From: Bacteroidales bacterium
Lineage (GTDB): Bacteria; Bacteroidota; Bacteroidia; Bacteroidales; P3
Length of the DNA: 50,950 nt
Direction: 5' to 3'
Assembly: GCA_017449975.1 (NCBI GenBank)
Contig: JAFSYK010000006.1
Location: 1 to 50,950 of the forward strand
This document shows, one piece after another, positions 1,632 through 47,226 of the stretch. The stretch's first letter is position 1. The number at the start of each line of letters is the position of its first letter. The notes below the pieces were generated by a model. That model was given only the letters and a program-made list of their open reading frames with translations. It had not been told where the DNA came from and did not search any database. A program made the position numbers and the translations under genes.

Positions 1632-1800
1632 GATGAATGGTTAGTGGTTATGGGTTATTGGTTATTGAGAAGAAGTAAAGGAGACAGTAGTTAAGGAGTT
1701 AAGACAAATGAATGGTTAGTGGTTATGGGTTAGTGGTTATGGGTTATGGGCTAGGGGTAATTGGTTATGAGTTATTGGTTATTGACAAGTGCGTGATTGG
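1632..1800 (-). repeat. simple-sequence leader tract (ATAACCCATAACCACTAACC words)
   Basis: On the minus strand this leader of the GT4 gene is built from repeated words such as ATAACCAATAACCCATAACC and CCACTAACCATT, with almost no G. The tract is degenerate, so it is not a clean microsatellite. It fills most of the gap between the two glycosyltransferase genes. No promoter box was recognised in it. Confidence 0.7.
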
Positions 1801-1806
1801 TGATTG

Positions 1807-1859
1807 GTGACCTGTGAAACGAGTGCGTGACTAAAATCGTATCACGGGTCACAGGTCAC
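1807..1859. repeat. 11-bp inverted repeat at a gene end
   Basis: GTGACCTGTGA at 1807-1817 and its exact complement at 1849-1859 flank 31 bases and overlap the stop codon of the upstream minus-strand glycosyltransferase. The long loop and lack of a T-run make it a weak terminator candidate. It may instead be a local duplication product like the neighbouring simple repeats. Confidence 0.45.
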
Positions 1860-2947
1860 GATGCGGTAAGCGAGTTGGCGATTTGCTGGCAGCGGGCTTG
1901 CCAAGTATTCTTGACCGCCACCTCTTCAATGTGTTCTTTATATGCAGCCAGAATATCCCTATTCTGCAGAACATGCTCCAAGGCGGCACGAATGGATGCC
2001 GCATCCTTGTGGCTCACCATACCAATATGGTTCCTCTCGACAAAGCGAGCCATCCAGCTGTCCTCGACGACAAGCATCGGAACACCATAGCCGATTGTTT
2101 CGAAAAACTTGTAGGGGGCCGCAAAATCGATATAGTCATTATAGAAAGTCATGGCAAACAGATCCGCCTGCTGATACCGCTGTCGGACCGCCTCTCCGCT
2201 TTCGTGAACCACATTAACGTTGGAACTGACAAGCGGCGCGTATTCTTCGGAGACGGCATCCCAGTCGTAATCGCGGCAACAGAGTGTCAATCGTACATCC
2301 GGCAATCCCGAAACCGCTTGGAGCAGAGGTTTGAGGTTGTAGTTGGTACCCAAACCACCGACGTACAGCAAAGAGAGGGATGCGGTGTCGCTGGACTTGC
2401 AGTTTTTGCTATCCGCAGACAACAAACGCTCACATCCTGACGGCAGTTCCACCACTCGGCAGGTAAACTCGGCTGGTATGTGGGTTCGCATCTCCATCGT
2501 CGGAAGAAAAAGCACGTCGAGCCACCTGCGGTATTGCCACAAATCATAGCGATAGAACAGTGTAGCCATGCTATTCTTCCACCCATCACCGCGGTTGGCG
2601 AAACGCCAATGGATGTCGCGATAGAACAATCCGATAGGGATGCCATGCTGCTTACAGAAACGGAAGAATCCGAAATCGAGGAACGGGTAGGTAGGCAGGT
2701 GGTTGCGCTCGGTGAGCAGGGTGGGCATGGTCGACGACTCGCTGTAGAGGAAATCGTAATGCACGCCCTGACGGATATTCCGCTTGATGGCTGCGATGCG
2801 TTGTTTGCGTTCCGCACCGTAGCCCTCAACCACATCGACCTCGTAACCCAATTCGGCAAATGCCGCCATCAACTTTTGCGGACGAATCTGACTCGCCGAC
2901 GGATCGGAACGGTCGATATGGATAGGTATATGGAAAATAATTCTCAT
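1856..2947 (-). CDS. GT-B-fold glycosyltransferase
   Basis: Predicted glycosyltransferase of 363 residues. It begins MRIIFHIPIHIDRSDPSASQ, with RPQKLMAAFAELGYEVDVV forming the first Rossmann unit. The C-terminal half has LLYVGGLGTNYNLKPLLQAV, a GT4/GT1-like start of the donor-binding domain, and later FAAPYKFFETIGYGVPMLV, which holds the usual glutamate of the donor site. Its ATG overlaps the stop codon of the flippase gene by four bases (ATGA), so the two are probably translationally coupled. The context (flippase before, GT4 enzyme after) points to surface polysaccharide synthesis. The exact linkage is unknown. Confidence 0.75.
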   Translation of the reverse strand: MRIIFHIPIHIDRSDPSASQIRPQKLMAAFAELGYEVDVVEGYGAERKQRIAAIKRNIRQGVHYDFLYSESSTMPTLLTERNHLPTYPFLDFGFFRFCKQHGIPIGLFYRDIHWRFANRGDGWKNSMATLFYRYDLWQYRRWLDVLFLPTMEMRTHIPAEFTCRVVELPSGCERLLSADSKNCKSSDTASLSLLYVGGLGTNYNLKPLLQAVSGLPDVRLTLCCRDYDWDAVSEEYAPLVSSNVNVVHESGEAVRQRYQQADLFAMTFYNDYIDFAAPYKFFETIGYGVPMLVVEDSWMARFVERNHIGMVSHKDAASIRAALEHVLQNRDILAAYKEHIEEVAVKNTWQARCQQIANSLTAS

Positions 2948-4392: not shown

Positions 4393-4430
4393 TTGAGAGA
4401 CAATAAGAAGTTAGGGTATATTTTGACCGT

Positions 4431-5210: not shown

Positions 5211-5226
5211 TATTACTAAGAATTAT

Positions 5227-10621: not shown

Positions 10622-11818
10622 ATGAACATTGTCGTCGGCATCAGCGGTGGCATTGCAGCCTACAAGTCGCCCCATCTGGTGCGACTGCTACGCGATGCGG
10701 GACACAGTGTGCAATGCGTCGCCACAACCCATGCACTGGAGTTTGTGACCCGCACCACGCTGGAGACCGTGTCGGGACGACGGCTGTACTGCGACCTCTT
10801 CGACCCCGCCAACGACCACTCTACCGAGCATATCTCACTGAAAGACTGGTGCGACGCCGTCATTGTGGCGCCTGCCACCGCCAACATCATCGGCAAGATG
10901 GCCAACGGCATTGCCGACGACGCCTTGTCGACACTGTTGCTGGCGGTAGGCGGCAAACCGATCTTCGTCTGTCCCGCCATGAATAGCGAGATGTGGCGTA
11001 ACACCGCTGTGCAGCGCAACATCGAAACACTGCGCCGACAGGGTGTCGTCATGATCGGCCCCGACGACGGCCATCTGGCCTGCGGCACCAACGGCGTAGG
11101 CCGTATGTCGCAACCCGAAGCCATCGTCGCCGCTTTCAATGCCGCGACAGCCGAAGCAAAATTCCTTGCGGGGAAATGGGTGCTGGTGACCGCCGGCCCC
11201 ACCTACGAGCGTATTGATCCGGTACGATTCATCGGCAATTACTCGTCGGGTAAGATGGGGGTGGCACTGGCCGAAGCACTGGCTGAAGCGGGTGCAACCG
11301 TCGAACTGGTGGCCGGTCCTATGCAGGCCCGCTGCCATGCGGAACGTGTCAATGTCCACAACGTGGAGAGCGCCCAGGAGATGTACGATGCCGCCACGCA
11401 GCTTTTCCCCCAATGCGATGCCGCCATACTGGCCGCCGCCGTCGCCGACTACCGTCCCGACCACTGTGCCGACACCAAAATCAAACGGCAGGACAAGGAC
11501 GAGATGACGCTGCGACTGGTGCGCAATCCCGACATTCTGGCCACGCTGGGTAGCCACAAGCGCGACGACCAGACGCTCATCGGCTTTGCGCTGGAGACCA
11601 ACGACGAGGAACGGCATGCCAAAGACAAGCTGGAACGCAAAAACCTGGACTACATCGTGCTGAACTCGCTACGCGACAAAGGCGCCGGTTTCGGTGTCGA
11701 TACCAACAAAGTGACCATCCTGCGTCGCGACGGGGAAATCCACTCCCTCCCGCTGATGGACAAGCACGAAGTAGCCCGCCAGATTGTCGCATATTGCTTC
11801 CCCACCCTTCAACCCTAA
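10622..11818 (+). CDS. coaBC: bifunctional phosphopantothenoylcysteine decarboxylase / phosphopantothenate--cysteine ligase CoaBC
   Basis: Catalyses two steps of coenzyme A synthesis. The N-terminal flavoprotein half starts VVGISGGIAAYKSPHLVRLL, has VAPATANIIGKMANGIADD, and carries the PxMNxxMW substrate motif as PAMNSEMW. The C-terminal ligase half starts VLVTAGPTYERIDPVRFIGN and includes GKMGVALAEALAEAGA, AAVADYRP and RNPDIL. The 398 residues equal the family length. A simple-sequence tract begins right at its stop codon. Confidence 0.96.
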   Translation: MNIVVGISGGIAAYKSPHLVRLLRDAGHSVQCVATTHALEFVTRTTLETVSGRRLYCDLFDPANDHSTEHISLKDWCDAVIVAPATANIIGKMANGIADDALSTLLLAVGGKPIFVCPAMNSEMWRNTAVQRNIETLRRQGVVMIGPDDGHLACGTNGVGRMSQPEAIVAAFNAATAEAKFLAGKWVLVTAGPTYERIDPVRFIGNYSSGKMGVALAEALAEAGATVELVAGPMQARCHAERVNVHNVESAQEMYDAATQLFPQCDAAILAAAVADYRPDHCADTKIKRQDKDEMTLRLVRNPDILATLGSHKRDDQTLIGFALETNDEERHAKDKLERKNLDYIVLNSLRDKGAGFGVDTNKVTILRRDGEIHSLPLMDKHEVARQIVAYCFPTLQP

Positions 11819-11861
11819 AACCCTTTAACCCTAAAACCGTCCAACCCTCCAACCCACCACC
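11815..11861 (+). repeat. AACCCTAAAACCCT leader tract
   Basis: The 47 bases between coaBC and the transglycosylase start are repeats of AACCCTAAAACCC and CCAACCCTCC, with only one G before the start codon. The same words recur before the starts of the VIT-VWA gene, the alcohol dehydrogenase and the thioesterase, always in coding orientation. Confidence 0.8.
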
Positions 11862-12833: not shown

Positions 12834-15712
12834 CCTCTATCTCCATCCGAGGGGCACGCGAAAACAACCTGCAGAATATCGACATCGATATCCCGCGCAA
12901 CAAACTGGTTGTCATCACAGGTCTCAGCGGCAGCGGCAAATCAAGTCTGGCCTTCAACACCATTCATGCCGAAGGACAGCGTCGCTACATGGAGACCTTC
13001 TCCTCCTATGCCCGTCATTTTGTAGGCAACATGGAGCGTCCCGATGTGGACAGCATCGACGGACTAAGTCCCGTCATCGCCATCGAGCAGAAGACCACCA
13101 ACAAAAATCCCCGTTCCACCGTCGGCACCATCACCGAAATCTATGACTTTCTGCGTCTGCTTTACGCCCGTGTGGGCGAAGCCTACTCGCACATCAGCGG
13201 GGAAAAGATGGTGCGCTACACCGAAGAACAGATCATCCATACCATCGAAGAGCAGTATGCCGACCACGACATCATGGTGCTGGCACCCATGGTCAAACGA
13301 CGCAAAGGTCATTATAGGGAACTCTTTGTGCAGATTGCCAAGAAGGGATTCCTGCGCGTGCGTATCGATGGCGAGGTGCGTGAACTGACCGTCAACATGC
13401 AGGTGGATCGCTACAAGGTACACGACATCGAGGTGGTGGTCGACCGCATCCATATCAAACCACATTCCTCACGCCTCAAAGAGGCAGTGCGCACCGCCTT
13501 TAAGCTGGGTAAAGGTGTGCTGATGCTGCTGGACAACAGCGTCGATGTCGACGACGAAGCACGCTGTCGCTATTTCAGTCGCCTGCTCATGGACCCCACC
13601 ACAGGTCTCTCCTACCCTGAGCCGGAACCCAATACCTTCTCGTTCAACTCGCCCTATGGCGCTTGCCCCAAATGCAACGGACTGGGTGAAATAGCCGAAA
13701 TAGACTTAAACAAGCTGATACCAAACCGGCACAAGAGCATCCGCCAGGGTGCTTTCGACGTGCTGGGAAAATATAGCGCCACCAACTACCTCTACCGTCA
13801 GCTGGAGCGTCTCGGACAAAGCTACGGCTTCACCATCGACGACCCCGTTGAGCAGTTCAGCCCCGAGGCGATGGATGTCATCCTCTATGGCACCAGCGAC
13901 TATTCCGACATGAGCGACTACTCGGAAAAGGCCGCCACAGGCAACGGCTTCCCCGGCATCGTGAACTACATCGTCCAGACTGCCTCTGAAGAGAGCTCTG
14001 CCGCCATGCAGAAATGGGCCAGCAGTTTCATGAACACCGTCGTCTGTCCCGAGTGCCACGGTCACCGGCTACGTCCCGAATCGCTGGCGTTCAAAATCGA
14101 CGGGATGCACATCGGCGAGATGGCAGCCCTCGACATCGACGAACTGATGCAACAGTTGGAGGGATTGGAGGATCGACTGGACAACACCCGCTCCGCCGTC
14201 GCCCACGAGATTCTAGGCGAGATACGCACACGGCTGCAGTTTATGATAGATGTGGGCACCAGCTACCTTTCGCTCAACCGCAGCACACGGTCGCTGTCGG
14301 GCGGTGAATCGCAGCGCATCCGTCTGGCCACCCAGATTGGGTCGCGGCTGGTCAATGTGCTTTACATCCTCGACGAACCAAGCATCGGACTGCACCAGCG
14401 CGACAACGCCAAACTCATCGAAGCATTGAAATCGTTGCGCGACCTTGGCAATAGCGTCATCGTGGTTGAACACGACCGCGACATGATGCTCAACGCCGAC
14501 TGGCTCATCGACATCGGTCCCGGCGCCGGCGTCCACGGCGGCAAGGTGCTGTTTCAAGGTAACCCCCAGAATCAGATTATTCCGAATACTCAGAATACTC
14601 TGAGTACTCAGAGTACTCTGAATACTCCGATAACAACCAGCCTGACGCTCGAATACCTCTCACGGAAGCGCGACATTCCGATTCCGGAGAGGAGAAGCAT
14701 CGAAGGCCACCAGCACCTTATCATCGAAGGTGCCACGGGCAACAACCTCAAATCGGTCACGCTCGATCTGCCACTGGGTGTATTCGTCTGCGTGACGGGT
14801 GTCAGCGGCAGCGGCAAATCAACACTCATCAACGAGACGCTGCATCCCATCCTGAGCCAACGACTCAACCGTTCCGACAAAAAGCCACTACCCTACAAGG
14901 CTATCCATGGCGTCGAACATATCGACAAAGTTATCGAGATCGACCAAGCGCCCATCGGACGTACACCGCGCAGTAACCCCGCCACCTACGTGGGACTTTT
15001 CGACGACATCCGTCGACTCTTTGCCGAGCTGCCCAGCGCACGCATCCGTGGCTACAAACCAGGGCACTTCTCCTTCAACGTCAGCGGTGGCCGCTGCGAG
15101 CACTGCAAAGGTGCCGGCGTGCGCACCATCGAGATGAACTTCCTGCCCGACGTCTACGTCAACTGCGAGATGTGCAACGGCAAACGGTACAACCGCGAGA
15201 CGTTAGAGATTCGCTACAAAGGCAAGAGCATCTCCGATGTGCTGGACATGACCATCGACGACGCCGTCGATTTCTTCTCCTCCTTCCCGAGACTATACAA
15301 CAAGCTCAAGACCTTGCAGGAGGTCGGACTGGGCTATATCCGACTCGGCCAGCAGAGCACCACACTCAGCGGTGGCGAGGCACAACGCATCAAGCTGGCC
15401 ACCGAGCTGGCACGCACCGACACCGGCAACACCCTCTATATCCTCGACGAACCCACCACGGGATTGCACTTCGAGGACATCCGCGCCCTGCTCGACGTGC
15501 TGCAACGACTGGTGGAACGCGGCAACAGCGTGGTGGTCATTGAGCACAACCTCGACGTGGTGAAAGTCGCCGACTGGGTCATCGACATGGGTCCCGACGG
15601 CGGTCGCAACGGCGGACAGATTGTCTTTGCCGGCACACCCGAGCAATTGGCCAAACAGCCCAACAACAGCACGGGATACTATCTGGCGAAAGAGTTGAAT
15701 AGTGAATCGTGA
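12830..15712 (+). CDS. uvrA: excinuclease ABC subunit UvrA
   Basis: Damage-recognition ATPase of nucleotide excision repair, 960 residues. Two ABC ATPase modules are visible: Walker A GLSGSGKSSLAF and GVSGSGKSTLIN, ABC signatures RSLSGGESQRIRLA and TLSGGEAQRIKLA, and Walker B segments ending LDEP. Zinc-binding cysteine pairs occur as CPKCNGLG...CPECHGHRL and CEHCKGAG...CEMCNGKRYN. The protein is about 16 residues longer than expected at the junction of the two halves (about residues 579-604), where an in-frame simple repeat is inserted. It overlaps the transglycosylase stop by four bases. Confidence 0.97.
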   Translation: MTSISIRGARENNLQNIDIDIPRNKLVVITGLSGSGKSSLAFNTIHAEGQRRYMETFSSYARHFVGNMERPDVDSIDGLSPVIAIEQKTTNKNPRSTVGTITEIYDFLRLLYARVGEAYSHISGEKMVRYTEEQIIHTIEEQYADHDIMVLAPMVKRRKGHYRELFVQIAKKGFLRVRIDGEVRELTVNMQVDRYKVHDIEVVVDRIHIKPHSSRLKEAVRTAFKLGKGVLMLLDNSVDVDDEARCRYFSRLLMDPTTGLSYPEPEPNTFSFNSPYGACPKCNGLGEIAEIDLNKLIPNRHKSIRQGAFDVLGKYSATNYLYRQLERLGQSYGFTIDDPVEQFSPEAMDVILYGTSDYSDMSDYSEKAATGNGFPGIVNYIVQTASEESSAAMQKWASSFMNTVVCPECHGHRLRPESLAFKIDGMHIGEMAALDIDELMQQLEGLEDRLDNTRSAVAHEILGEIRTRLQFMIDVGTSYLSLNRSTRSLSGGESQRIRLATQIGSRLVNVLYILDEPSIGLHQRDNAKLIEALKSLRDLGNSVIVVEHDRDMMLNADWLIDIGPGAGVHGGKVLFQGNPQNQIIPNTQNTLSTQSTLNTPITTSLTLEYLSRKRDIPIPERRSIEGHQHLIIEGATGNNLKSVTLDLPLGVFVCVTGVSGSGKSTLINETLHPILSQRLNRSDKKPLPYKAIHGVEHIDKVIEIDQAPIGRTPRSNPATYVGLFDDIRRLFAELPSARIRGYKPGHFSFNVSGGRCEHCKGAGVRTIEMNFLPDVYVNCEMCNGKRYNRETLEIRYKGKSISDVLDMTIDDAVDFFSSFPRLYNKLKTLQEVGLGYIRLGQQSTTLSGGEAQRIKLATELARTDTGNTLYILDEPTTGLHFEDIRALLDVLQRLVERGNSVVVIEHNLDVVKVADWVIDMGPDGGRNGGQIVFAGTPEQLAKQPNNSTGYYLAKELNSES
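14573..14635 (+). repeat. in-frame simple repeat inside uvrA
   Basis: Degenerate repeats of AATACTC/AGTACTC encode a Gln/Asn/Thr/Ser-rich stretch (NTQNTLSTQSTLNTP) between the N- and C-terminal halves of UvrA. It includes a perfect 16-base palindrome at 14598-14613. The reading frame is kept. Confidence 0.8.
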
Positions 15713-15835
15713 AGTTGAGAAATTGTGAAGTTGTAAAGTTGTGAAGTTGTGAACTTAACATCTTCTCATCATAACATCTTAGTTTTAACCACTGACCACT
15801 TTTTAGATCTTACTTTTTAGTTTTTAGTTTTCAAA
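15700..15835. repeat. simple-sequence tract between uvrA and the DUF819 gene
   Basis: From the uvrA stop onward the gap holds GTGAATCGTGAAGTTG and GTGAAGTTG repeats, then CCACTGACCACT, then TTTTTAGTTTTTAG runs. The same words occur elsewhere: GTGAATCGTGAATCG at 45952-45966, TGACCACTGACCACT at 38643-38658, and TTTTTAGTTTTTAG at 45987-46004. No promoter box or terminator was identified in this 127-base gap. Confidence 0.65.
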
Positions 15836-15839: not shown

Positions 15840-17060
15840 GTGCACTCCCTCCTTTACGCCCTCTACCTTATCGTCGTTCCCATCGTCGTCATGCGACTGG
15901 GCAGTCGTTGGCGTTGGATTGAGCGCATCAGTCCCATGACGGTGCTCTACATCATCGGACTTCTGGTGGCCAACTTCACCCATTTCTCGGCAGCGGAAAA
16001 GGTGGGCGACATCACCGACCTCTTCAACACCGTCGCCGTACCCACCGCCATACCGCTCATGCTGATGAGCTGCAACTTGAAAGGCTGGTCGGTGGGCAAA
16101 GCTGTCAAAGTGTTCCTCTGCGGACTGGTGTCCGTACTGGCTTGCTGCATCATTGGCTACTTCATCTTTCGCGACCCCGACAATCCCACCCGCTTTGCTC
16201 AAGTCAGCGCGGTAACGACAGGACTCTACACGGGCGGCATCCCCAATGTCGGCGCCATCTCGCAAGCAGTGGGCATCAGCAACGAATTATATCTTTACAT
16301 CACCTCCTACGACTTGATTGTCACCGGACTCTACCTTGTCTTCGTCATCTTCGCCGGCAAGGTGGTCTTCCGCCGTCTGTTGCCTCCACAGAACACAACA
16401 ATTCAACAAATCAACAACCCAACAACTCAACAACCCAACTTATCAACAGACAGCCAAATCAACATCTCAACATTTCAACGACTCAACATATCAACAATAC
16501 TAAAAGAGCTCTGGCTACCCTTTCTGCTGACCGCTGTGATTGTGGGCGTCTCCGTCTTGGTGTCCACCCTCTTTTCGCCTGCCGGCAAACGAAACATGAC
16601 CCTGCTGATTCTGACGCTGACCACCCTCTCCATCGCCGCCTCGCTGCTGCCAGGCATCCGCCGGCGCAATACAAAAGCCGACAGCGAAGGCCGCCAGCCC
16701 TATTCCTTCGAGTGCGGCCTCTACTGCGTCTATCTTTTCTGTTTTGCCATTGCCAACAGCTGCGACGTACGCGAGATGGATCTCTCGGGCAGCTTGGATG
16801 TGCTCTATTACCTGGGCTTCGTCATCTTTGGCTCGCTCACCCTGCAAGTCATCCTGGCCAAAGTGATGAAGATTGACGGCGACAGCGTCCTCGTCAGTTC
16901 CATCTCACTCATCAACTCGCCGCCCTTCGTACCCATGGTGGCAGCCCTGCTGGGCAACAAAGACATCATCGTCCTCGGCATCACTGTCGGACTCCTGGGC
17001 TACATGCTCGGCAACTACATGGGCATCGGCATCTTCCACCTGCTCACCAGCCTCGGATAA
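15840..17060 (+). CDS. DUF819-family integral membrane protein
   Basis: Polytopic inner-membrane protein of 406 residues with about ten hydrophobic segments. Motifs such as VAVPTAIPLMLMSCNL, TGLYTGGIPNVGAISQAVGI and LINSPPFVPMVAALLGNK are typical of DUF819 (YjcL-like), a family of unknown function with a repeated transporter-like fold. Residues about 183-220 are a Gln/Asn/Thr-rich insert (TTIQQINNPTTQQPN and so on) encoded by a simple repeat, probably in a cytoplasmic or periplasmic loop. The start is GTG at 15840; I found no better ATG. A strong bidirectional hairpin follows two bases after the stop. Confidence 0.82.
   Translation: MHSLLYALYLIVVPIVVMRLGSRWRWIERISPMTVLYIIGLLVANFTHFSAAEKVGDITDLFNTVAVPTAIPLMLMSCNLKGWSVGKAVKVFLCGLVSVLACCIIGYFIFRDPDNPTRFAQVSAVTTGLYTGGIPNVGAISQAVGISNELYLYITSYDLIVTGLYLVFVIFAGKVVFRRLLPPQNTTIQQINNPTTQQPNLSTDSQINISTFQRLNISTILKELWLPFLLTAVIVGVSVLVSTLFSPAGKRNMTLLILTLTTLSIAASLLPGIRRRNTKADSEGRQPYSFECGLYCVYLFCFAIANSCDVREMDLSGSLDVLYYLGFVIFGSLTLQVILAKVMKIDGDSVLVSSISLINSPPFVPMVAALLGNKDIIVLGITVGLLGYMLGNYMGIGIFHLLTSLG
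16395..16500 (+). repeat. in-frame AACAACCCAACAACTCAACA repeat inside the DUF819 gene
   Basis: About 105 bases of degenerate CAACAA/TCAACA words with very few G encode roughly 38 residues rich in Gln, Asn, Thr and Ser. The tract has the composition of the intergenic leader tracts, yet lies within a membrane-protein gene and keeps its frame. Confidence 0.82.
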
Positions 17061-17982: not shown

Positions 17983-19116
17983 CTAATGGGAGAAGGCGAA
18001 GATGGCGGTGTCACTATGGGCGGGACGCTGCGGAGCGTAGGTACAGCCCGTGGAGTCGGTATAGACCAACGGCTGGATGAGACAGATGACACCGGCTCGC
18101 GCTTTGACTTTCAGTCCCTGCAAAGACTGTCCGTCGTCGTTCATACCTACCTGCCGATAAAAACGTATCTGGAAATAGGATTCAGGCACATGGCTCTTTG
18201 CCAGCAGCTGTCGGAACTCCTCGTTCTGTTCCACCCACTGCTGCCGCTTGCGACGGCTGTTGAAAGAGGGCATCGACTCTCCCGGCGCATAGAAATACTC
18301 ATAGGTGCAGGGAACGATAAAGCTGAAGTGGTAGATTTGTGCGGGGTTGTCTTGAAAACGGCGGCGCAGCCCCTCTTCCCAGCGTACCTTGTCGGCAGGA
18401 TAGCGTCGTTTCAACTGCTGCACCAGCTGACTGTTGTCGACTGCCGAGTCGGGATGGTGGAAGGCGTACCAGGTGCGGGCGTAGTAGTGGCGCAGCGATT
18501 GCGGGTTGCGGTTCCGCGAGAGGTAGGCGTAGTATTCGAATAATTTGGAGGCCATCACCGTGACGTGGCCACCGAAGGCTTCGGCCAGCACGTCGAGCAG
18601 TGCTTGGTTCTGTCCCACAGCGCAGCCATGCAAGAAGACCACGGTGAGCGAATCGACCAGCGTGCTGTCGGGCGACACCACTAACCGTTGCTCCAACGCC
18701 TGCCGTAACGTTTCGGGCGAAGTCCGCGGACCGCGCGGCGTGACGGACATCTGCAGGTCGACAAACTCATTGCCATGGCTGACGAGGTTGATGAGGCCGT
18801 AGGGACGGTGGTTGACAGTGTCGGGATGGGCACGCAGCCAGTCCATCACTTGACTGAGCGACGTGAGGTTGTCGACCACTACATCGGTACGGTCGTCGGC
18901 ATTGATCCGATAGTAATGCCCCGCCATTTCATAATATCTGTTATAGACACTATTGTCGTGGCCCAAGATAAAAGTCACCGAGCGACGCGGAATGGTATCG
19001 ACCTCGATGGTGTCGGCGACACTATCCGTCGCAACAACGTCGATGTCGCCCCTCCCCTTGCAGGAGAAGAGCGACATCGCAGTAGCCAGTCCGAGGAGGA
19101 GCAGTTGCAGCCTCAT
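17983..19116 (-). CDS. lipoprotein with caspase-like (clan CD) His/Cys layout, function unknown
   Basis: Protein of 377 residues starting MRLQLLLLGLATAMSLFSCK, with the lipobox cysteine at 19. I do not recognise the family by name. Two motifs stand out. A hydrophobic strand ends in NLVSHGNE (His114). About 50 residues later, a hydrophobic strand ends in VVFLHGCAVGQ (Cys165). A strand-then-HG and a strand-then-Cys at this spacing is the arrangement of clan CD cysteine peptidases (caspase, gingipain, CHAT types). Catalysis is inference. The ATG overlaps the stop of the VIT-VWA-TonB gene (ATGA), so the two are translated together. An upstream in-frame start (19194) would lie inside that gene and read through non-signal sequence. 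The C-terminal 150 residues show no known motif. Confidence 0.72.
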   Translation of the reverse strand: MRLQLLLLGLATAMSLFSCKGRGDIDVVATDSVADTIEVDTIPRRSVTFILGHDNSVYNRYYEMAGHYYRINADDRTDVVVDNLTSLSQVMDWLRAHPDTVNHRPYGLINLVSHGNEFVDLQMSVTPRGPRTSPETLRQALEQRLVVSPDSTLVDSLTVVFLHGCAVGQNQALLDVLAEAFGGHVTVMASKLFEYYAYLSRNRNPQSLRHYYARTWYAFHHPDSAVDNSQLVQQLKRRYPADKVRWEEGLRRRFQDNPAQIYHFSFIVPCTYEYFYAPGESMPSFNSRRKRQQWVEQNEEFRQLLAKSHVPESYFQIRFYRQVGMNDDGQSLQGLKVKARAGVICLIQPLVYTDSTGCTYAPQRPAHSDTAIFAFSH

Positions 19117-21443
19117 TCCTCGGGGATGACAAAGTTGATAGGTAGAGCGAATTGTACGCGGACGGGTTTGCCCTGCATCATGCCGGGCTTCCACTTGGGC
19201 ATCATCTTCACCACGCGCACCGCTTCGGCGCCGCAGCCACTACCGATATCTCTCAGAATCTTGATATCCGTGATGGTGCCGTCTTTCTCGACAACAAAAG
19301 AGAGAAACACCCTGCCTGAAACGTTGTTGTCGATGGCCTCCTGCGGATAGGCAATATTGCGCGAAAGGAAGGCGATGAGCGAGTCCATGCCACCGGGGAA
19401 CTCCGGGTTGGTCTCCACCAACGAGTATATTTCTTCTTCCTCTGTCTCATCCTCTTCTATCTCCAGTTCGACAACAGCCGATTCCAGCACCATCCCCTTG
19501 CCATTGGGAACTGCTCCCGAACGCATTAGCATCGGAGCGGCATCATAGCCTACGGCGTAGTCGCTCACACCCTCGGGCATGGGCAGCGGCTGTTTGACGA
19601 CAACCTGCTTGCCATCCTTGTTGACCACCTGCTCGTCGATAGCGATGAAGGAGGTGTAGTTGGACATAAGATTGTATTTCAGTCCCAATGCAAGAATCTG
19701 CTTGGCGGTGGGATTCGTTTCGTCGGCATTTTGTCCAACCATATAGTCGAGGTATTTGATGCGCTCGCGTGCCCAGAGGTAGCGCAGAGCAGCATTAGCC
19801 GTGTCGGCCTTCACTTTCGACAGGTCAAAGCTCTGCTTCCAGCCCTTGCGTCCCACCTTGCCAGTGAGGGTCAGCGAGCCCGTGGCTTTGCCTTTGTATT
19901 TGCCATAGATAAGGATAGGACGCTCGGCCATCATGTCGGGCACCGCAGCGGGTTCGACATCGTAGGCCTTGAAACTGCCACCCAACTTGATGCGCGTCAG
20001 CACCGGTGTGCTGATATACTCGCGGAAGCGCTTGGCTTGTGCGGCGGACTCCTTCTCGCTGGTGACGACAAACGGTTCACCGCCGCCGGCAAAGGCCATA
20101 CCCTCGATGAGGTAGCGGTTGACGCTGGAGCCGATACCAAAGGCGAAGAAATTGGCTTGTCCGCTACGTTGACGTATCCACTCGAAGCAATCGCTCTCGG
20201 CATCTACATAGCCGTCGGTGGCGATGACAACGGTGCGCGCCATATCCTGGTCGGGCAGCGGGATGGCATAGGCGGTCTTCAAGGCGTCGAGCACCTCGGT
20301 GCCACTCCACTTGTTGGCACCCTTGATGAAGTCGAGTGCCCGCTGGACGTTGGCCTCGGTGACATCGACAGAGGTGGGACTAAAGATGTCAGCATTGCTC
20401 GAGAAGAGCACCACATTGAACTTGTCGCCTGGGTTGAGTCCCATAATCAGGTTGCACATCAGGCTCTTGGTCACCTCCATCGGGAAACCCCACATCGAGC
20501 CACTGACATCGACGATGAAAATGTACTCCCGCGGCGGGATATTCTCTTTGGCCACACGATTGGGAGGCTGTACCATGGCGAGGAAGAAATTCTCGTCGGC
20601 GCCCTCGTAGAGCAGCACGCCACTCTCAATCTGGCCACCCTGCAGCGAGTAGTTGACGATGACGTCACGGTTGCCGCCGGCTGTCTCCGAAGGATCAAGG
20701 GTCACCGTAGCCCGACGCAGGTCGGCGTGATTAACCCTCATCTTGTGACTGGTACAATGAATATCCTGGATGGGGATGCCCGAACGGATTTCGAGTTTGT
20801 AGCCAAAGCCGTAGGTCGGTTTCTCGCCCGCATGAGTATAGGGCGTCCGCACGAAGTCGTCGTCGGGGGCATTGTCCGACCGTTCCTTGTTGGAGTAGCG
20901 GGGCCCCACCACGGTGGGATAGACGAAGGCGTAGACTCCCTTCTCCGGCACCAGCAACTCAGTGTATTTCAGCTCAACGATGATGGTGTCGGCCGGCATA
21001 ATGTTGCTGACATTCATGGTGAAGACATTGGGGCGACTCTGTTCGAGCAGCGAGGCACGCTTACCTTCCTGCTTGGCCTGCTCGTAGTCGGCACGCGCCT
21101 TCTTCTTCTCCTCAATCTGAGCGCGGACGATGCGGCTGCCAATGGTCATCTGCATCCCGTAGACGGCGGCACGCGTCGACATGGGGAATGTGTAGATAGC
21201 CTCCAGCGCGTTCTTACCGCTGTTGACGTAGACCTGACGCACGGTGACATCGGCGATGGAGCCCACGATGACCGTGTTGACCGAGGTCTCTTTCAGCGGC
21301 AGCGCGTCGATCTCGGGATTGTCGCTAATGACAACGAAATAAGGCGAGAGGGTTTTGTCCTCGTCTCTGTCGCCACGTTGTGCGAAGACGCTGCTCAGTG
21401 TCAGCAGACAGAAGCCCAAAAAGAGAAAGAGTTGTTTTTTCAT
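19113..21443 (-). CDS. VIT and von Willebrand A domain protein with C-terminal TonB domain
   Basis: Exported protein of 776 residues. Layout: signal peptide (1-21, ending VFAQ); VIT domain (about 40-165, with EAIYTFPMSTRAAVYGMQM and a DYEQAKQEG helix); VWA domain (about 305-480) with a complete MIDAS start DVSGSMWG (Asp312, Ser314, Ser316); an acidic linker (ELEIEEDETEEEEI); and a TonB C-terminal domain (about 690-776, PEFPGGMDSLIAFLSRNIAY to VQFALPINF). VIT-VWA proteins bind partner proteins through a metal site, and TonB domains touch outer-membrane receptors. No N-terminal membrane anchor for energy coupling is visible beyond the signal peptide. The longer frame to 21506 is only the translated repeat tract. 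The next gene encodes the caspase-like lipoprotein. Confidence 0.9.
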   Translation of the reverse strand: MKKQLFLFLGFCLLTLSSVFAQRGDRDEDKTLSPYFVVISDNPEIDALPLKETSVNTVIVGSIADVTVRQVYVNSGKNALEAIYTFPMSTRAAVYGMQMTIGSRIVRAQIEEKKKARADYEQAKQEGKRASLLEQSRPNVFTMNVSNIMPADTIIVELKYTELLVPEKGVYAFVYPTVVGPRYSNKERSDNAPDDDFVRTPYTHAGEKPTYGFGYKLEIRSGIPIQDIHCTSHKMRVNHADLRRATVTLDPSETAGGNRDVIVNYSLQGGQIESGVLLYEGADENFFLAMVQPPNRVAKENIPPREYIFIVDVSGSMWGFPMEVTKSLMCNLIMGLNPGDKFNVVLFSSNADIFSPTSVDVTEANVQRALDFIKGANKWSGTEVLDALKTAYAIPLPDQDMARTVVIATDGYVDAESDCFEWIRQRSGQANFFAFGIGSSVNRYLIEGMAFAGGGEPFVVTSEKESAAQAKRFREYISTPVLTRIKLGGSFKAYDVEPAAVPDMMAERPILIYGKYKGKATGSLTLTGKVGRKGWKQSFDLSKVKADTANAALRYLWARERIKYLDYMVGQNADETNPTAKQILALGLKYNLMSNYTSFIAIDEQVVNKDGKQVVVKQPLPMPEGVSDYAVGYDAAPMLMRSGAVPNGKGMVLESAVVELEIEEDETEEEEIYSLVETNPEFPGGMDSLIAFLSRNIAYPQEAIDNNVSGRVFLSFVVEKDGTITDIKILRDIGSGCGAEAVRVVKMMPKWKPGMMQGKPVRVQFALPINFVIPEE

Positions 21444-21506
21444 ATTTGGAGGATTGAAGGGTTTTAGGGTTTGAAGGTTTGAGGGATTAAGGGGGTTAGG
21501 GTACAC
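21444..21506 (-). repeat. AACCCT/CTTCAAACCCTAAAACCC leader tract
   Basis: On the minus strand, directly before the ATG of the VIT-VWA gene, words such as AACCCTAATCCC, TTCAAACCCTAAAACCC and TTCAATCCTCC repeat with almost no G. The vocabulary and orientation match the tract before the transglycosylase gene. The rest of the gap (21507-21582) shows nothing recognisable. Confidence 0.8.
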
Positions 21507-25450: not shown

Positions 25451-25590
25451 TTATGTGACGTTTGACATTTAATGTTTAACGTTTAATGTTTAACGTTTAA
25501 CGTTTAATGGTTAATGTTTAATGTTTAACGTTTAGTGTTTATCGTTTAGTGTTTATCGTTTGACGTTTAATGTGATTCTGAGTTTGACGT
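25451..25590 (-). repeat. ATTAAACGTTAAAC leader tract
   Basis: About 140 bases of degenerate ATTAAACGTTAAACATTAAAC words (minus strand) precede the M16 gene. The same words occur before the alcohol dehydrogenase gene (29300-29325) and before the TonB-receptor-like gene (38593-38627). No promoter box was recognised in this 223-base gap. Confidence 0.85.
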
Positions 25591-29289: not shown

Positions 29290-29437
29290 CCAATGGACGC
29301 ATTAAACGTAAAACATTAAACCTCTAAAACCCTTTCACCCCTCAAACCCTCGACCCCTCGAACCTTTCAACCCTTTCAACCCTTTCAACCCTTGAACCCT
29401 CGAACCCTCAAACCATCAAACCCTCAAACCCTCTGAA
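29290..29437 (+). repeat. mixed leader tract: TTAAACGT words then AACCCT words
   Basis: The leader of the alcohol dehydrogenase starts with CATTAAACGTAAAACATTAAAC and changes to long runs of TTTCAACCC, CTCGAACCC and CTCAAACCC. Both word families occur separately before other genes in this window. G is rare. The tract fills most of the 196-base gap after the microprotein gene. Confidence 0.85.
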
Positions 29438-29440: not shown

Positions 29441-30607
29441 ATGAATATCGATTTCACCTTTGAGAACCCCACACGCATCCATTTCGGACGCACCGCCATG
29501 CAGCACCTTCCCGAGGAGCTGCGGCTTTACGGCAGCAACGTGCTGCTCGTCTACGGAAAGAATTCCATCAAGGCCAGCGGCCTCTACGACCAAGTCATCG
29601 CAGTGCTGAAAGAGACCGGCAAAAATGTCTGCGAGTTGTCGGGCATCAATTCCAATCCACGCTACAGTCAGGTACTGGAAGGTGCCCGTCTGGTGCGGGA
29701 GAACCATGTCGACCTTATCCTGGCCGTGGGCGGCGGCTCCGTCATCGACTGCTGCAAAGGCATCTCCGCCTCCGCCTATTGCGACGGCGACGCCTGGGAG
29801 AAATACTGGATGCAAGGCGAAGCCGTGAGCGGCCGCATCACCCCCATCGGCACCATCCTCACCATGACCGGCACGGCGTCGGAGATGAACAGCGGGGCCG
29901 TCATCACCAACGAGGAGAGGAAAATCAAGCAGGGGCGCGTGTTCCCCATGGGCGACCTCAACCCCCGTTTCTCCATCCTGAATCCCGAGTTCACCTATAG
30001 CGTACCAAGATATCAGATGGTTAGCGGCATCTTCGACATCTTCTCGCACCTGATGGAACAGTATTTCGGTGGCGACGACGACAACGTGAGCGACTATCTG
30101 CTCGAGGGTGACATGCGCGCCCTTATCAGCGCCGCGCGCGCCGCCCTGCGCGACCCTCACAACTACGAAGCACGCAGCAACATCATGTGGTGCGCCACCA
30201 TGGGACTTAACAAGATACTCGCCGTGTCGAAGAAACAGGACTGGGAGGTACACCAAATCGAACACCAGCTGGGTGCTTATACCGATTGCGCACACGGCAT
30301 CGGTTTAGCCATCATTTCCGTACCCTACTATCGCCATATCTATCGCTACGGACTACACCGTTTTGTGCGCTATGCCCGCAATATCTGGGACGTTGACCCC
30401 ACCGGCAAAAGCGACGAACAGGTGGCGCTAGAAGGCATCGACCGATTGAGCGACTTCATCGCCGAGCTGGGCATCCCGCAGACACTGCGCGAGGTGGGAG
30501 CCACCGAGGAGATGCTGCCCCTCATCGCCGAGAGCGCCAACAAGATTGGCGGCTACCACACACCTACCACCGAGGAGGTGCTGGAAATCCTCCGTGCCTG
30601 TTATTAA
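29441..30607 (+). CDS. iron-containing alcohol dehydrogenase (YqhD/BdhA-like)
   Basis: NAD(P)H-dependent alcohol dehydrogenase of 388 residues. The N-terminal nucleotide-binding half has NPTRIHFGRTAMQHL and the GGGSVID motif (LAVGGGSVIDCCKGI). TGTASEMNSGAVI follows. Iron ligands are expected in GIFDIFSHLMEQYF and EHQLGAYTDCAHGIGLA. The length fits the YqhD/butanol dehydrogenase branch, which reduces short aldehydes. It starts at the ATG right after a simple-repeat leader. Physiological substrate unknown; it may dispose of reactive aldehydes or reductant. Confidence 0.93.
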   Translation: MNIDFTFENPTRIHFGRTAMQHLPEELRLYGSNVLLVYGKNSIKASGLYDQVIAVLKETGKNVCELSGINSNPRYSQVLEGARLVRENHVDLILAVGGGSVIDCCKGISASAYCDGDAWEKYWMQGEAVSGRITPIGTILTMTGTASEMNSGAVITNEERKIKQGRVFPMGDLNPRFSILNPEFTYSVPRYQMVSGIFDIFSHLMEQYFGGDDDNVSDYLLEGDMRALISAARAALRDPHNYEARSNIMWCATMGLNKILAVSKKQDWEVHQIEHQLGAYTDCAHGIGLAIISVPYYRHIYRYGLHRFVRYARNIWDVDPTGKSDEQVALEGIDRLSDFIAELGIPQTLREVGATEEMLPLIAESANKIGGYHTPTTEEVLEILRACY

Positions 30608-34232: not shown

Positions 34233-34613
34233 TTACGATAAAAGATGACGGAAATCATCAGGTATGGGGGCGCTGGTGGAGGTGGAACGGCAGTAGCCGG
34301 CCATCACCGTGCGACACTCGGCACAGAGGGTGCCGTCAGACTTGACAACCCGCTGCAGGATATGAAGACTCTTGTTGCCGATACGCTCCAATTCGGTTTC
34401 GACGGCTATCTCGTCGTTCATGTGTATCTGGCTGCGAAAATCGACCTCGACATGCACCACCATCACCGTGAAGTCTCCCTCCTCGGCATGGATGCCGCGG
34501 TCAGAAAAAAAGCGGGCTTTGCCCAGGTCAAAAAACTCCATGATGACAGCATTGTTGACATGCCCCATGGCATCGACATCATTGAAGCGCAGTTGGATAG
34601 GTAAGGTGTGCAT
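34233..34613 (-). CDS. acyl-CoA thioesterase, hotdog fold (YbgC / 4-hydroxybenzoyl-CoA type)
   Basis: A 126-residue hotdog protein. RFNDVDAMGHVNNAVIMEFFD holds the conserved Asp near the N-terminus (RxxDxDxxGHVNN) of the 4-hydroxybenzoyl-CoA thioesterase family; VVHVEVDFRSQIHMNDEI forms the central strands. It would hydrolyse a short- or medium-chain acyl-CoA in the cytoplasm. Probably cotranscribed with the serine deaminase five bases downstream. Substrate unknown. Confidence 0.9.
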   Translation of the reverse strand: MHTLPIQLRFNDVDAMGHVNNAVIMEFFDLGKARFFSDRGIHAEEGDFTVMVVHVEVDFRSQIHMNDEIAVETELERIGNKSLHILQRVVKSDGTLCAECRTVMAGYCRSTSTSAPIPDDFRHLLS

Positions 34614-34616: not shown

Positions 34617-34743
34617 TGGGAGGGGTTGAAGGGTTAAAGGGTTAAGGGTTTAAAACTTGGAGGGGTTAAGGGCTGGAGGGATAATTAGTCCTATTGGACC
34701 CATTAGACCAATTAGTCTTATTAGACCAATTAGTCCTATATCC
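34617..34743 (-). repeat. two leader tracts: AACCCT words and TTAGTCTAATTAGTCC words
   Basis: Next to the thioesterase ATG, the minus strand reads CCCTTAACCCTTTAACCCTTCAACCCC with almost no G (34617-34680). Beyond it (34684-34740) lies a second tract of ATTAGTCCTATTGGACCCATTAGACCAATT words that recurs at 41345-41405. Two word families abut at a sharp border. Confidence 0.8.
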
Positions 34744-38491: not shown

Positions 38492-38507
38492 CAGAAAAAT
38501 TGAGAAT

Positions 38508-38665
38508 TGAGAGTTGAGAATTGAGAATTTTAGTTTCTGGGTGAAAGTTATTTTACTAATCTAACACTAATTATTCGTATCTTTGTTTTTTTAATAACGT
38601 TTAAAGTTTAATGTTTAACGTTTAATGTGCTCCCACTAACAACTGACCACTGACCACTAAAAACA
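38508..38665 (+). repeat. simple-sequence words around the barrel-gene promoter
   Basis: GAGAATTGAGAGTTGAGAAT repeats lie at 38504-38530. Past the promoter box, GTTTAAAGTTTAATGTTTAACG (38599-38627) and ACTGACCACTGACCACT (38642-38658) fill the leader up to the ATG. The words match tracts at 25451, 29300 and 15787. Confidence 0.7.
38578..38585 (+). promoter_or_regulatory. TATCTTTG promoter box for the TonB-receptor-like gene
   Basis: TAnnTTTG match about 92 bases before the ATG at 38677. The long leader downstream consists of simple-sequence words. Confidence 0.65.
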
Positions 38666-41342: not shown

Positions 41343-41405
41343 GCGTTAGGTACTATTAGACTAATAGGTCTAATTGGTCCTATTAGTCTAATTAGTCTAA
41401 TAGTG
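41343..41405 (+). repeat. TTAGTCTAATTAGTCC-type tract
   Basis: Words such as TATTAGACTAATAGGTCTAATTGGTCC and ATTAGTCTAATTAGTC, partly palindromic, lie between the barrel gene and tRNA-Gln. The same words occur at 34684-34740. No terminator for the barrel gene was identified in the gap. Confidence 0.75.
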
Positions 41406-41471: not shown

Positions 41472-41499
41472 CAACCGCTTTTGAAAGAGAAAAAGCCAT

Positions 41500-41570: not shown

Positions 41571-41575
41571 CAAGA

Positions 41576-41614: not shown

Positions 41615-41659
41615 CTCAATTCACTACTATTGGCGATAGACCATTTCAAACATTAGGTT

Positions 41660-41667
41660 TATCTTTG
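41660..41667 (+). promoter_or_regulatory. TATCTTTG promoter box for feoAB
   Basis: TAnnTTTG match 20 bases before the feoAB ATG at 41688. No Fur-box-like palindrome was recognised. Confidence 0.7.
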
Positions 41668-41687
41668 CATTGGAAAGATTCCTTACT

Positions 41688-44042: not shown

Positions 44043-44130
44043 AAAATTATCGTTATAACGTGATAATGTGATAACGAAAAAATGAAATCGTAATAACGAA
44101 ATAACGTTATAACGTAATAACGAAAACAAA
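44043..44130 (+). repeat. ATAACGAAATAACG leader tract
   Basis: Degenerate words ATCGTTATAACGTGATAATG and GTAATAACGAAATAACGTTATAACG fill the space between feoAB and the next gene. They continue as a G-poor stretch to the ATG at 44154. Related words lie at 44893-44934 and 47165-47210. Confidence 0.85.
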
Positions 44131-44153
44131 TCAACAACAAATAACAAACCACC

Positions 44154-44891: not shown

Positions 44892-44892
44892 A

Positions 44893-44934
44893 TTAATTCG
44901 TAATTACGTTATAACGAAAAAAACGCAATAACCT
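44893..44934. repeat. short ATTACGTTATAACG tract
   Basis: The 43-base gap between the convergent S23-like and dihydroorotate-dehydrogenase-like genes holds TTCGTAATTACGTTATAACG and AACGCAATAACC words, related to the tract upstream at 44043. No terminator is visible. Confidence 0.6.
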
Positions 44935-45921: not shown

Positions 45922-45967
45922 ATCTTTTGATTGTTTGATTGCGTATTTCTGGTGAATCGTGAATCGA

Positions 45968-45975
45968 CAAATGTA
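45968..45975 (-). promoter_or_regulatory. TACATTTG promoter box
   Basis: TAnnTTTG match on the minus strand 47 bases before the ATG of the dihydroorotate-dehydrogenase-like gene. The leader in between is G-poor, with GATTCACGATTCACC words. Confidence 0.6.
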
Positions 45976-45984
45976 CTAGCCGCA

Positions 45985-46018
45985 AATTTTTTAGTTTTTA
46001 GTTTTTACTTTTTAGTTT
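45985..46018 (-). repeat. CTAAAAACTAAAAAGT tract
   Basis: On the minus strand AAACTAAAAAGTAAAAACTAAAAACTAAAAAA follows the rfbB stop. The same T-rich words occur on the plus strand at 15801-15830. Confidence 0.65.
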
Positions 46019-46024
46019 AGCTAA

Positions 46025-47161
46025 CTAACGGCTCCCGTACATATCTTCGTAATACTTCATATAGTCGCCCGAGGTGACGTTGTCCATCCACTCCTGGTTG
46101 TCGAGATACCAGCGGACGGTCTTCTCGATGCCCTCTTCGAACTGGAGACTGGGCTCCCAGCCCAGCTCGCGCTGCAGCTTGCTGCTATCGATGGCGTAGC
46201 GCATATCGTGGCCGGCGCGGTCGGTGACATAGGTGATGAGATCCATGTCGGCACCCTCGGGGCGACCCAACAGCCGGTCGACCGTGTTGATGACCACCTT
46301 GATGATGTCGATGTTCTTCCATTCGTTGAAGCCACCGATGTTGTAGGTCTCCGCTACCTTGCCCTCATGGAAAATGAGGTCGATGGCACGGGCATGATCC
46401 TCAACATAGAGCCAGTCGCGCACATTCTCGCCCTTGCCGTAGACGGGCAACGGCTTGCGGTGACGGATATTGTTGATGAAGAGCGGTATCAGCTTCTCGG
46501 GGAACTGGTAGGGACCATAGTTGTTCGAGCAGTTGGTCACCACTGTCGGCAGACCATAGGTATCGTGGAAGGCACGCACAAAATGGTCGCTGCTGGCCTT
46601 GGCGGCGCTGTAAGGGCTATGGGGCTGGTACTTCAAATCCTCGGTAAAGAATTTCTCCCCGTAGGCCAGATGATGCTCGCCACTGGAAGCCTTGGTGGTG
46701 AACGGGGGCTTGACACCCTCGGGATGCGTCATCTCCAACGCACCGTAGACCTCATCGGTCGAGATATGGTAGAAACGTTTGCCCTCATACTTTTCCGGCA
46801 GACTTTCCCAATACAGCTTGGCAGCCTGCAGCAGGCTGAGTGTACCCATCACATTGGTCTGTGCAAAGGTGAAGGGATCCTTGATGCTGCGGTCCACATG
46901 GCTTTCAGCCGCCAGGTGGATGATGCCGTCAACCCGCTCCTCCTGCATCAACTTATAGACTCCGTCGAAGTCGCAGATATCCATGCGAACAAACTTGTAG
47001 TTGGGCTTCGACTCGATGTCCTTCAGATTGGCCAGGTTGCCGGCGTAGGTCAGCTTGTCGAGATTGATAATCTTGTACTGCGGGTACTTGTTGACAAACA
47101 GCCGCACGACATGGCTTCCAATAAAGCCCGCTCCACCGGTTATGATGATATTCATATTCAA
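46025..47161 (-). CDS. rfbB: dTDP-glucose 4,6-dehydratase
   Basis: Makes dTDP-4-keto-6-deoxyglucose for rhamnose and related sugars. It is an SDR enzyme of 378 residues with NAD motif ITGGAGFIGSHVVRLF, LAAESHVDRSI, the catalytic TDEVYG (Thr, Asp, Glu), YxxxK as YSAAKAS, and NNYGPYQFPEKLIP. It lies 67 bases after rfbA, separated by a simple-repeat tract. rfbC and rfbD, usual partners, are not in the window. A start at 47155 (MNIIITGG) is also possible. Confidence 0.96.
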   Translation of the reverse strand: MNMNIIITGGAGFIGSHVVRLFVNKYPQYKIINLDKLTYAGNLANLKDIESKPNYKFVRMDICDFDGVYKLMQEERVDGIIHLAAESHVDRSIKDPFTFAQTNVMGTLSLLQAAKLYWESLPEKYEGKRFYHISTDEVYGALEMTHPEGVKPPFTTKASSGEHHLAYGEKFFTEDLKYQPHSPYSAAKASSDHFVRAFHDTYGLPTVVTNCSNNYGPYQFPEKLIPLFINNIRHRKPLPVYGKGENVRDWLYVEDHARAIDLIFHEGKVAETYNIGGFNEWKNIDIIKVVINTVDRLLGRPEGADMDLITYVTDRAGHDMRYAIDSSKLQRELGWEPSLQFEEGIEKTVRWYLDNQEWMDNVTSGDYMKYYEDMYGSR

Positions 47162-47226
47162 TTATTTATTTATCGTCATTTCGTTATTTCGTTATATCGT
47201 TATTTATCAAGCATTCACGCATTCAA
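47162..47226 (-). repeat. ATAACGAAATAACGAAATGACG tract between rfbA and rfbB
   Basis: The minus strand reads GATAAATAACGATATAACGAAATAACG just before the rfbB ATG. The words match the tract before the S23-like gene at 44043-44130. Confidence 0.75.

Follow-up and report, generated by a model that had tools for sequence, protein, structure and literature searches.

How do the same short words come to fill unrelated spacers of one bacterial genome? The question is raised by a 50,950-nt stretch of DNA from a Bacteroidales bacterium (hereafter the window), contig C12 of a 2,313,358-base genome (103 contigs, 95% complete), in which degenerate simple-sequence arrays recur at distant loci. A first reading made from the letters alone (the sequence-only reading) had counted about fourteen such tracts, ascribed them to copying rather than slippage, and found no named element that fits. 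On balance, we think it somewhat probable that the arrays form a species-specific, dispersed population of short tandem repeats in intergenic spacers, resembling repetitive extragenic palindromes (REP) and the short tandemly repeated repetitive (STRR) sequences, as the heptamer repeats of cyanobacteria such as Calothrix are named, and shaped by block copying, local duplication and a filter acting on the transcript.

We analysed the window together with 33 further stretches of the same genome (489,585 bp in all, hereafter the 490-kb sample; 21% of the genome), two of them chosen for holding a word and the remainder by contig number, detecting arrays with Tandem Repeats Finder (TRF) and genes with our own codon-based caller (399 genes, 81% coding, start positions approximate). 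The sample held 221 arrays, 49 mostly in called genes, which cover 81% of the sequence, and 172 in 91,027 bp of intergenic sequence, as compared with 0–1 in each of ten order-2 Markov nulls; leaving out the window and the two word-chosen stretches, 149 intergenic arrays remained in 398,635 bp. The window itself has 16 intergenic arrays (score ≥45) and four mostly in called genes, rather than about fourteen tracts. Periods of 7, 8 and 9 dominated, and when each word was entered once per gap, same-word pairs between gaps numbered 123 among 48 entries for period 7 (500 letter-shuffled sets: mean 9.6, highest 25), 23 among 37 for period 8 (highest 5) and 53 among 36 for period 9 (highest 3). The leading period-7 words were AACCAAT, AAACGTT, AAAAACT and AATTCTC; further leading words were AACTACTT, AACAATTC, AACATCTT, AACTTCAC and AATTAGACC, and the 19-mer TTTAACGTTTAACGTTTAA alone had 100 matches in the genome (≤1 mismatch, overlapping matches included). 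A limited dictionary, with words of 7, 8 or 9 bp, supplies the arrays, whose 5–11-nt units, many loci, shared words and mostly intergenic position are those of multi-locus short tandem repeats of the STRR or long simple sequence repeat (LSSR) kind.

The sharing of words across the window thus survives array calling, mapping of word positions and null models, and stands far above what base composition predicts. Four of the six words originally quoted stand as written, one of them as its reverse complement: AACCCT clusters at 11811–11843, 21458–21466 (reverse), 29328–29427 and 34630–34645 (reverse), with single copies elsewhere too; ATAACG clusters at 44055–44117 and 47182–47198 (reverse), with single copies at 44907 (reverse) and 44911; TGACCACT lies at 15793, 38644 and 38651; and CTAAAAACT lies, as its reverse complement, at 15819 and 45993. 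A fifth, TTAAACGTTAAAC, is exact (reverse) at 25474, 25488, 25495 and 38613 but merely imperfect near 29300, and the 16-mer TTAGTCTAATTAGTCC has no exact copy on either strand of the window, although its period-9 family is present at 34683–34739 and 41349–41401. The sharp abutment of word families at 29325 and 34682 is readily seen.

Shared words are one matter and shared joins between words another. An all-against-all comparison of 334 gaps yielded families of joins between different words, among them the 21-mer GTTAAGRCAAATGAATGGTTA, which includes non-repetitive letters. In this genome the 21-mer matches at 19 places spread over 11 contigs, among them window positions 1698–1718, whereas the 120 further genomes of the genus have no match (≤2 mismatches; a reversed control was likewise without match). 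Copies with this common join carry different word numbers beside it, and by eye the block copies have ragged ends. A second, mirrored block (FAM17), in which a GTGAAGTT array is followed by a CTTAACATC array, occurs in both orientations. Many unrelated gaps hold mosaic blocks of at least two words whose join has unique letters, although the copies of any one block cannot be counted as independent.

These joins bear directly on the possibility that the arrays are independent microsatellites, grown by local slippage from chance seeds, with words only apparently shared since slippage-prone G-free sequences are few. Multi-unit duplication is indeed visible; period-7 words are mostly G-free on one strand, which makes the effective dictionary smaller; and in a phylum-wide set drawn almost wholly from other orders, arrays of the word CAATAACC are rare, often pure and confined to few places. 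However, composition-keeping letter shuffles yield far fewer shared words, and recurrent joins with non-repetitive letters cannot be produced by local slippage alone, which already refutes the explanation for the copied joins. MutS-family matches (MutS_V, PF00488) were moreover found in 28/28 genomes, 14 taken as rich in arrays and 14 as poor. As an account of the arrays, independent slippage therefore strikes us as rather unlikely.

Slippage-like processes nevertheless have a share, and the earlier opposition of copying to slippage was half right: shared words and recurrent joins support copying, and local multi-unit duplication takes part too. Unit variants recur at lag 2 (CAATTCT, z 2.5; AAAAACT, z 2.4) or lag 3 (TTTAACG, z 2.3), which indicates multi-unit duplication at work; lag-1 similarity is clearly raised for CAATAAC only (z 2.4), not in most families. 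The idea that adjacent units are unrelated was softened by this lag-1 value and by the several raised lag-2 and lag-3 values.

Words are built from a fixed core with one to few variable positions, as in C[ACT]ATAAC, CAA[TC]TCT and AAAAA[CG]T. In arrays selected at ~72–75% identity to their word, the period-7 variable letter is about as diverse inside one array as across arrays of the genome (Fst-like values at the main positions 0.04, −0.09, −0.21 and 0.06, the last with permutation p 0.025), and three TCTAGA arrays, found by a search for exact cores, hold 11 different triplets among 20 spacers. Consensus units in this genome are G-free (or C-free) on one strand in 43/60 cases for period 7 and 40/52 for period 8, the random intergenic background being 45% of 7-mers and 40% of 8-mers. 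With an A+T filter on units, the counts are 50/63 and 40/46 here and 164/176 and 11/24 in congener samples, so the one-strand rule is strong for period 7 here and in congeners alike, but for period 8 it is weak outside this genome. No RNA fold is predicted for 57 of 98 period-7/8 arrays (31/51 and 26/47), and 15 of the 98 reach z < −2; among 34 period-9 arrays, 18 have a predicted fold with z < −2 and 5 have none. Self-complementarity of at least 70% characterizes 19/34 period-9 arrays versus 7/102 period-7/8 arrays. By these predictions, period-9 words would largely form palindromic hairpins and period-7/8 words would be mostly unstructured; three period-9 arrays occupy convergent gaps from stop to stop.

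Placement relative to genes is far from random. Array density per kb is 2.6 in tandem (co-directional) gaps, 2.18 in convergent and 0.82 in divergent gaps (21/172 arrays at stretch ends excluded), and 84 of 173 tandem gaps of 60–600 bp bear an array (67/142 without the window and the two word-chosen stretches). The motif TAnnTTTG, which we take to be the Bacteroidales −7 element, is present in 11/84 array-bearing tandem gaps versus 30/89 others (p 0.002): arrays favour co-directional spacers without a promoter motif. That they fill gene leaders, as had been proposed, applies to some of them, but they also occupy trailers and promoter-poor spacers; among 132 tandem-gap arrays, 15 overlap the downstream start or come within 5 nt of it, and 36 do so at the upstream stop. 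Arrays enter genes too, as the coding-frame array at 16392–16497 and the 49/221 arrays mostly in called genes indicate.

Orientation follows the same gene context. Strongly G-rich-sense arrays in tandem gaps all lie in the first half (28/28, median 2 nt past the stop) and G-poor-sense arrays tend to lie in the second (33/51); ignoring skew strength, 83/129 tandem-gap arrays are G-poor in sense. A rule of G-rich on the left and C-rich on the right, scored where flanking genes are well supported, holds for 50/65 tandem-gap arrays here and 59/83 in other species; with good flanks and periods 7, 8, 14 and 16, it holds for 4/4 convergent and 3/5 divergent cases, too few to judge. Strongly skewed arrays obey it in 8/15 divergent and 8/10 convergent cases, many of the divergent exceptions being period-11 arrays, which are of another kind. 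Oppositely skewed neighbouring arrays run G-rich then C-rich in a raw ratio of 39:9, or 35:4 with periods 10–13 excluded, and in 32 of 36 classes when each species-by-word-pair class is counted once (57 sampled genomes; the 32 come from 10 of them and the 4 from 2). The strand that runs outward from a gene is mostly G-rich; this holds strongly after stops, whereas the prevalence of G-poor words before starts is less strict.

Two general causes of this orientation were considered and set aside. In tract-poor congeners (15 samples, 345 kb, 79 tandem gaps), C and G are nearly equal in the first 40 nt after stops (0.218 and 0.215), and a base trend is therefore not the cause there; before starts the same congeners show a mild G shortage (G 0.179, C 0.205). 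Selection for extra stops after genes is weakly indicated, since stops (145 vs 120 shuffled) and starts (160 vs 125) are raised alike.

A more specific proposal is end-extension, in which a telomerase-like or other polymerase would add C-free words to 3′ ends at spacer breaks, such that rejoined ends read G-rich then C-rich. The order of opposite-skew neighbours (32/36 classes, from 10/57 sampled genomes) and the within-array mixing of variants at fixed positions of period-7 words are what it predicts. Gene context, however, gives the orientation rule equally well; period-11 arrays do not follow that rule and divergent gaps are too few to judge; the recurrent non-repetitive joins show copying of existing DNA; and no enzyme stands behind the proposal, reverse transcriptase matches (PF00078) being found in 6/14 rich and 6/14 poor genomes. 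We consider end-extension very unlikely. Equally far-fetched, in our estimate, is its broader form, in which a novel Bacteroidales enzyme or repair route would write degenerate 7–8-letter words on spacer DNA ends, C-free on the growing 3′ strand in telomerase-like fashion, with the word set inherited and exchanged between species as a library.

Comparison with relatives rests on one genome per species, in draft assemblies and with uneven sampling that was word-directed for G036, for part of G090 and G095 and for our two own stretches (G labels denote congeners, G000 the genome of the window). Among named relatives, the nearest found is bacterium P3 (Candidatus Hemicellulosilyticus sp. P3, Bacteroidales), with identities of 79% for FeoB, 86% for UvrA and 87% for the M16 peptidase (the latter two from genome G031, taken as P3). 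Eight array-bearing gaps were aligned with P3, one of them seen in part, and none of the arrays is present there: the M16 gene is preceded by a gap of 223 bp here versus 83 bp in P3, the gap of the array at 11804–11859 measures 88 versus 56 bp, and other aligned gaps are similar in length and mostly unrelated in sequence. No period-7/8/9 array was found in 80 kb of P3, in stretches that include the same genes. By comparison, G036 (UvrA 71% identical) has 73 such arrays in 120 kb, a density that is no fair average because its stretches were chosen at TTTAACG matches, and 19 of 52 sampled congeners have none (mostly ≤20 kb each).

Counting this genome, 42 of the 121 in the genus contain tripled CAATAACC, and 79 of 120 congeners lack it. 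It exceeds 20 matches in 12 other congeners, with UvrA identity from 77% (G090) to 69–74% (two partial matches), and never does so in several congeners that are equally near or nearer, P3 first among them. One tripled word has 171 matches here versus 0 to 126 in the 120 related species. More widely, tripled CAAYTCT occurs in 37/295 Bacteroidales genomes and 32/184 genera, again counting this one, and CAATAACC in 20/296 genomes across the phylum including this one, the others with at most 8 matches in a draw in which the order is represented by just two further genomes. CAATAAC has its main variable position in common with 13 other species (22 arrays), and for TTTAACG the place of variation agrees in 7, whereas AAAAACT- and CAATTCT-like arrays of other genomes mostly vary elsewhere in the unit. 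The CAATAAC agreement is such that simple within-genome copying does not explain the sharing.

Agreement of this kind would also suit functional arrays, acting as protein recognition sites (for RNA-binding, Rho, nucleoid or ribbon-helix-helix proteins) or as hairpins in RNA stability or termination, and selected for their place between genes and their orientation. Fixed cores with few variable positions, the CAATAAC position, the varied triplets between exact TCTAGA cores, the orientation rule, the strong predicted folding of period-9 arrays and the three that fill convergent gaps can all be read in this way. Yet P3 has no array in the 80 kb covered, which include the same genes, and 79/120 congeners do without CAATAACC, which argues that no conserved need is served; AAAAACT and CAATTCT vary at other positions in congeners; and the many different words would require many readers. 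Selected function thus appears an unlikely explanation, if one that several features would suit.

If blocks are copied, what carries them? Labels of rich and poor genomes are rough, being taken from array samples or CAATAACC counts (G027, labelled poor, has 5 arrays in 20 kb; G007, labelled rich, has no CAATAACC match). Loss of mismatch repair was discarded on the MutS_V counts and reverse transcriptase as the writer on those for PF00078, which show no link. The Y1 transposase (PF01797) is present in 15/20 genomes, with no visible link to word richness.

In the same genome, we observed a GTAG-tagged palindrome, GTAGGGGCGTACCCCCGTGTACGCCC, with 75 matches (≤3 mismatches); matches occur in 31/121 genomes of the genus including this one. 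In three genomes, Y1 transposase genes have copies on either side, and the Y1 gene of G000 carries one in-frame stop. The portion of a GTAG survey available to us names no Bacteroidetes for GTAG repeats (PMC3733652).

Could such palindromes and their Y1 transposase, a REP-associated tyrosine transposase (RAYT) system, have carried the words along? The number of palindromes, their positions beside the Y1 gene and their presence within 250 bp of 7 of the 12 join loci examined (two overlap) would fit. However, only 14/172 arrays have a copy within ~150 bp (nulls: mean 5.5, highest 14), and G090, G008, G023, G103 and G095 are word-rich without a GTAG match. As a general carrier the GTAG REP is refuted; the explanation, which we rate as highly improbable, could hold only for a REP-linked block family.

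We therefore return to dispersal by copying with local duplication. Seeds of one to few words would be copied from spacer to spacer by recombination or other small-scale copying, and multi-unit duplication would then lengthen or shorten them locally while keeping several unit variants in an array. They may survive only where the transcript is least harmed, that is, where they bring no starts or structure before a gene and do not lie over promoters. The outcome would resemble the dispersal of REP and bacterial interspersed mosaic elements (BIMEs) or of cyanobacterial STRRs, but with many words, and no function beyond tolerated occupancy need be assumed.

Several observations weigh against this account. 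A transcript filter explains G-poor leaders, not clearly the C-poor arrays after stops, and tract-poor species show no C-poor bias there. None of the four candidate agents (MutS_V, PF00078, PF01797 and the GTAG REP) visibly tracks word richness, and the last of these sits near just 14/172 arrays and is absent from several word-rich congeners. Genome-wide tracing of joins covered one block only. Period-8/9 arrays are less mixed than those of period 7, with Fst-like values up to 0.51. Finally, a CAATAAC position shared with far congeners would have to be accounted for by old inheritance followed by many losses, by transfer or by constraint.

The statement that no named element fits was too strong, because comparable repeats are known, namely the heptamers of cyanobacteria (including Nostoc) and Xanthomonas and the TAACTGA repeats of Beggiatoaceae, although none fits fully. 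As described in the accessible part of PMC4692102, the Nostoc GGGGA(T/C)T and Xanthomonas GGGNATC repeats likewise have heptamer units at many, mostly non-coding loci with one degenerate position. They comprise one or few words per genome in that account, in contrast to at least ten words, three periods, copied joins and an orientation rule here; GGGAATC, GGGGATT and GGGGACT have no exact tandem pair in the 490-kb sample. TAACTGA direct repeats are reported, in the portion of PMC4679880 available to us, from Beggiatoaceae, Cyanobacteria and five Bacteroidetes, with other heptamers beside them in two Bacteroidetes. These too are spacer heptamers with a patchy distribution, but the same portion describes a single word in mostly short sets close before starts, in forward orientation, with one Flexibacter case reversed just past a stop. 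Exact TAACTGA tandem pairs number 0 in the 490-kb sample, and our arrays do not lie directly upstream of starts (15/132 at the start versus 36/132 at or over the upstream stop, called starts being approximate).

REP and BIME sequences share with these arrays a mosaic block structure and, according to the part of PMC3733652 seen, a preference for co-directional and convergent gaps near 3′ ends. They differ in that the words here form tandem arrays, show neither a GTAG nor a CGTC tag on inspection, and occur in genomes without a match to the GTAG REP. Contingency loci, which are phase-variable simple sequence repeats, also consist of short tandem units near genes, unlike the degenerate 7–9-bp units at many loci found here. 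In the literature searched, itself seen in part, we found no description of a multi-word repeat system in Bacteroidales, which is weak as a negative. Spacers in bacteria are usually regarded as short and streamlined, and about half of the sizeable co-directional spacers sampled here carry arrays from a shared dictionary. Should the copying step be confirmed, the arrays would be a bacterial counterpart of satellite-DNA concerted evolution, with 120 related species as a ready comparison, and the old question of how interspersed heptamers (STRR, TAACTGA) spread would become directly testable.

Table. Arrays of the window and loci of other dispersed repeats (positions are those of the window unless another locus is named).
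Position	Strand	Feature	Context
1638–1784	−	Two CAATAAC-type arrays (TGGTTAT on +) joined by GTAGTTAAGGAGTTAAGACAAATGAATGG	Between two − strand genes; TRF
11804–11859	+	AACCCTTC-type period-8 array, G-poor sense	Upstream stop (11816–11818) inside
14572–14627	+	Period-9 array TCAGAATAC/TCTGAATAC	Within called uvrA frame
15698–15753	+	GTGAAGTT period-8 array, G-rich sense	uvrA stop (15710–15712) inside; left half of mirrored block FAM17
15749–15779	+	CTTAACATCTTCTCATC words	Right, G-poor half of mirrored block
15787–15831	+	TGACCACT copy and TTTTTAG (AAAAACT family) array	
16392–16497	+	CAACAACT/CAACAAAT period-8 array	Within coding frame
21454–21502	−	AACCCT-family array (AGGGTTT on +)	Upstream of − gene 19113–21443
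25468–25573	−	TTAAACG-family array (TTTAACG/TTTAATG on +)	Before M16 peptidase gene
29328–29433	+	AACCCTTTC/AACCCTCA array	Before + gene at 29441; adjoins short TTAAAC stretch
34617–34655	−	TTAACCCT array (GGGTTAAA on +)	Before − gene 34233–34613; absent from P3 gap
34683–34739	−	ATTAGWCY period-9 self-complementary array	Predicted hairpin z = −7.0 vs mononucleotide shuffles
38498–38529	−	CTCAATT/CTCAACT (AATTCTC family) array	
38595–38660	+	TTTAACG-family array, then TGACCACTGACCACTAAAAAC	Between TATCTTTG motif and + gene
41349–41401	+	ATTAGTCTA period-9 self-complementary array	Just past stop; predicted hairpin z = −9.1; P3 sequence unrelated
44051–44122	+	ATAACG period-8 array	Between feoB and next gene
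44907–44925	+	Short ATAACG copies	
45988–46018	−	AAAAACT-family array (TTTTTAG on +)	
47173–47205	−	AATAACGA array (TCGTTATT on +)	Gap 73 bp vs 65 bp in P3
L284 (G000:C102, Y1 gene 67225–67521); G002:C3:74295–75040; G056:C3:158473–159187		GTAGGGGCGTACCCCCGTGTACGCCC copies	Flanking Y1 gene
L014 15244–15359; L010 16324; L103 147; L107 11014; L110 7157; L117 490		~116-bp palindromic element	
Window 50775–50950; L009 3771; L010 6961; L011 3626; L103 117; L106 18785; L115 117		TGAATTAAATTTAAACAGCTTCT repeat	
L180 17307; L186 6966; L195 6484; L192 17965; L215 17547 (among others)		Period-11 arrays	

Other repeats were seen beside the words. A dispersed palindromic element of ~116 bp (with GAACACGAATCTAACGAATTACTATTCGTG), similar to a miniature inverted-repeat transposable element, occupies 8 related gaps in the 490-kb sample, and another dispersed repeat, containing TGAATTAAATTTAAACAGCTTCT, has 7 copies there, several near contig ends. 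Period-11 arrays (ACCAACTCCGT-like) occur in divergent gaps of several congeners; their period is close to the helical repeat of DNA, and they look like regulator sites, apart from the 7–9-bp words. A cobalamin riboswitch (111 bits) lies at window positions 48394–48586, before a gene for a BtuB-like TonB receptor.

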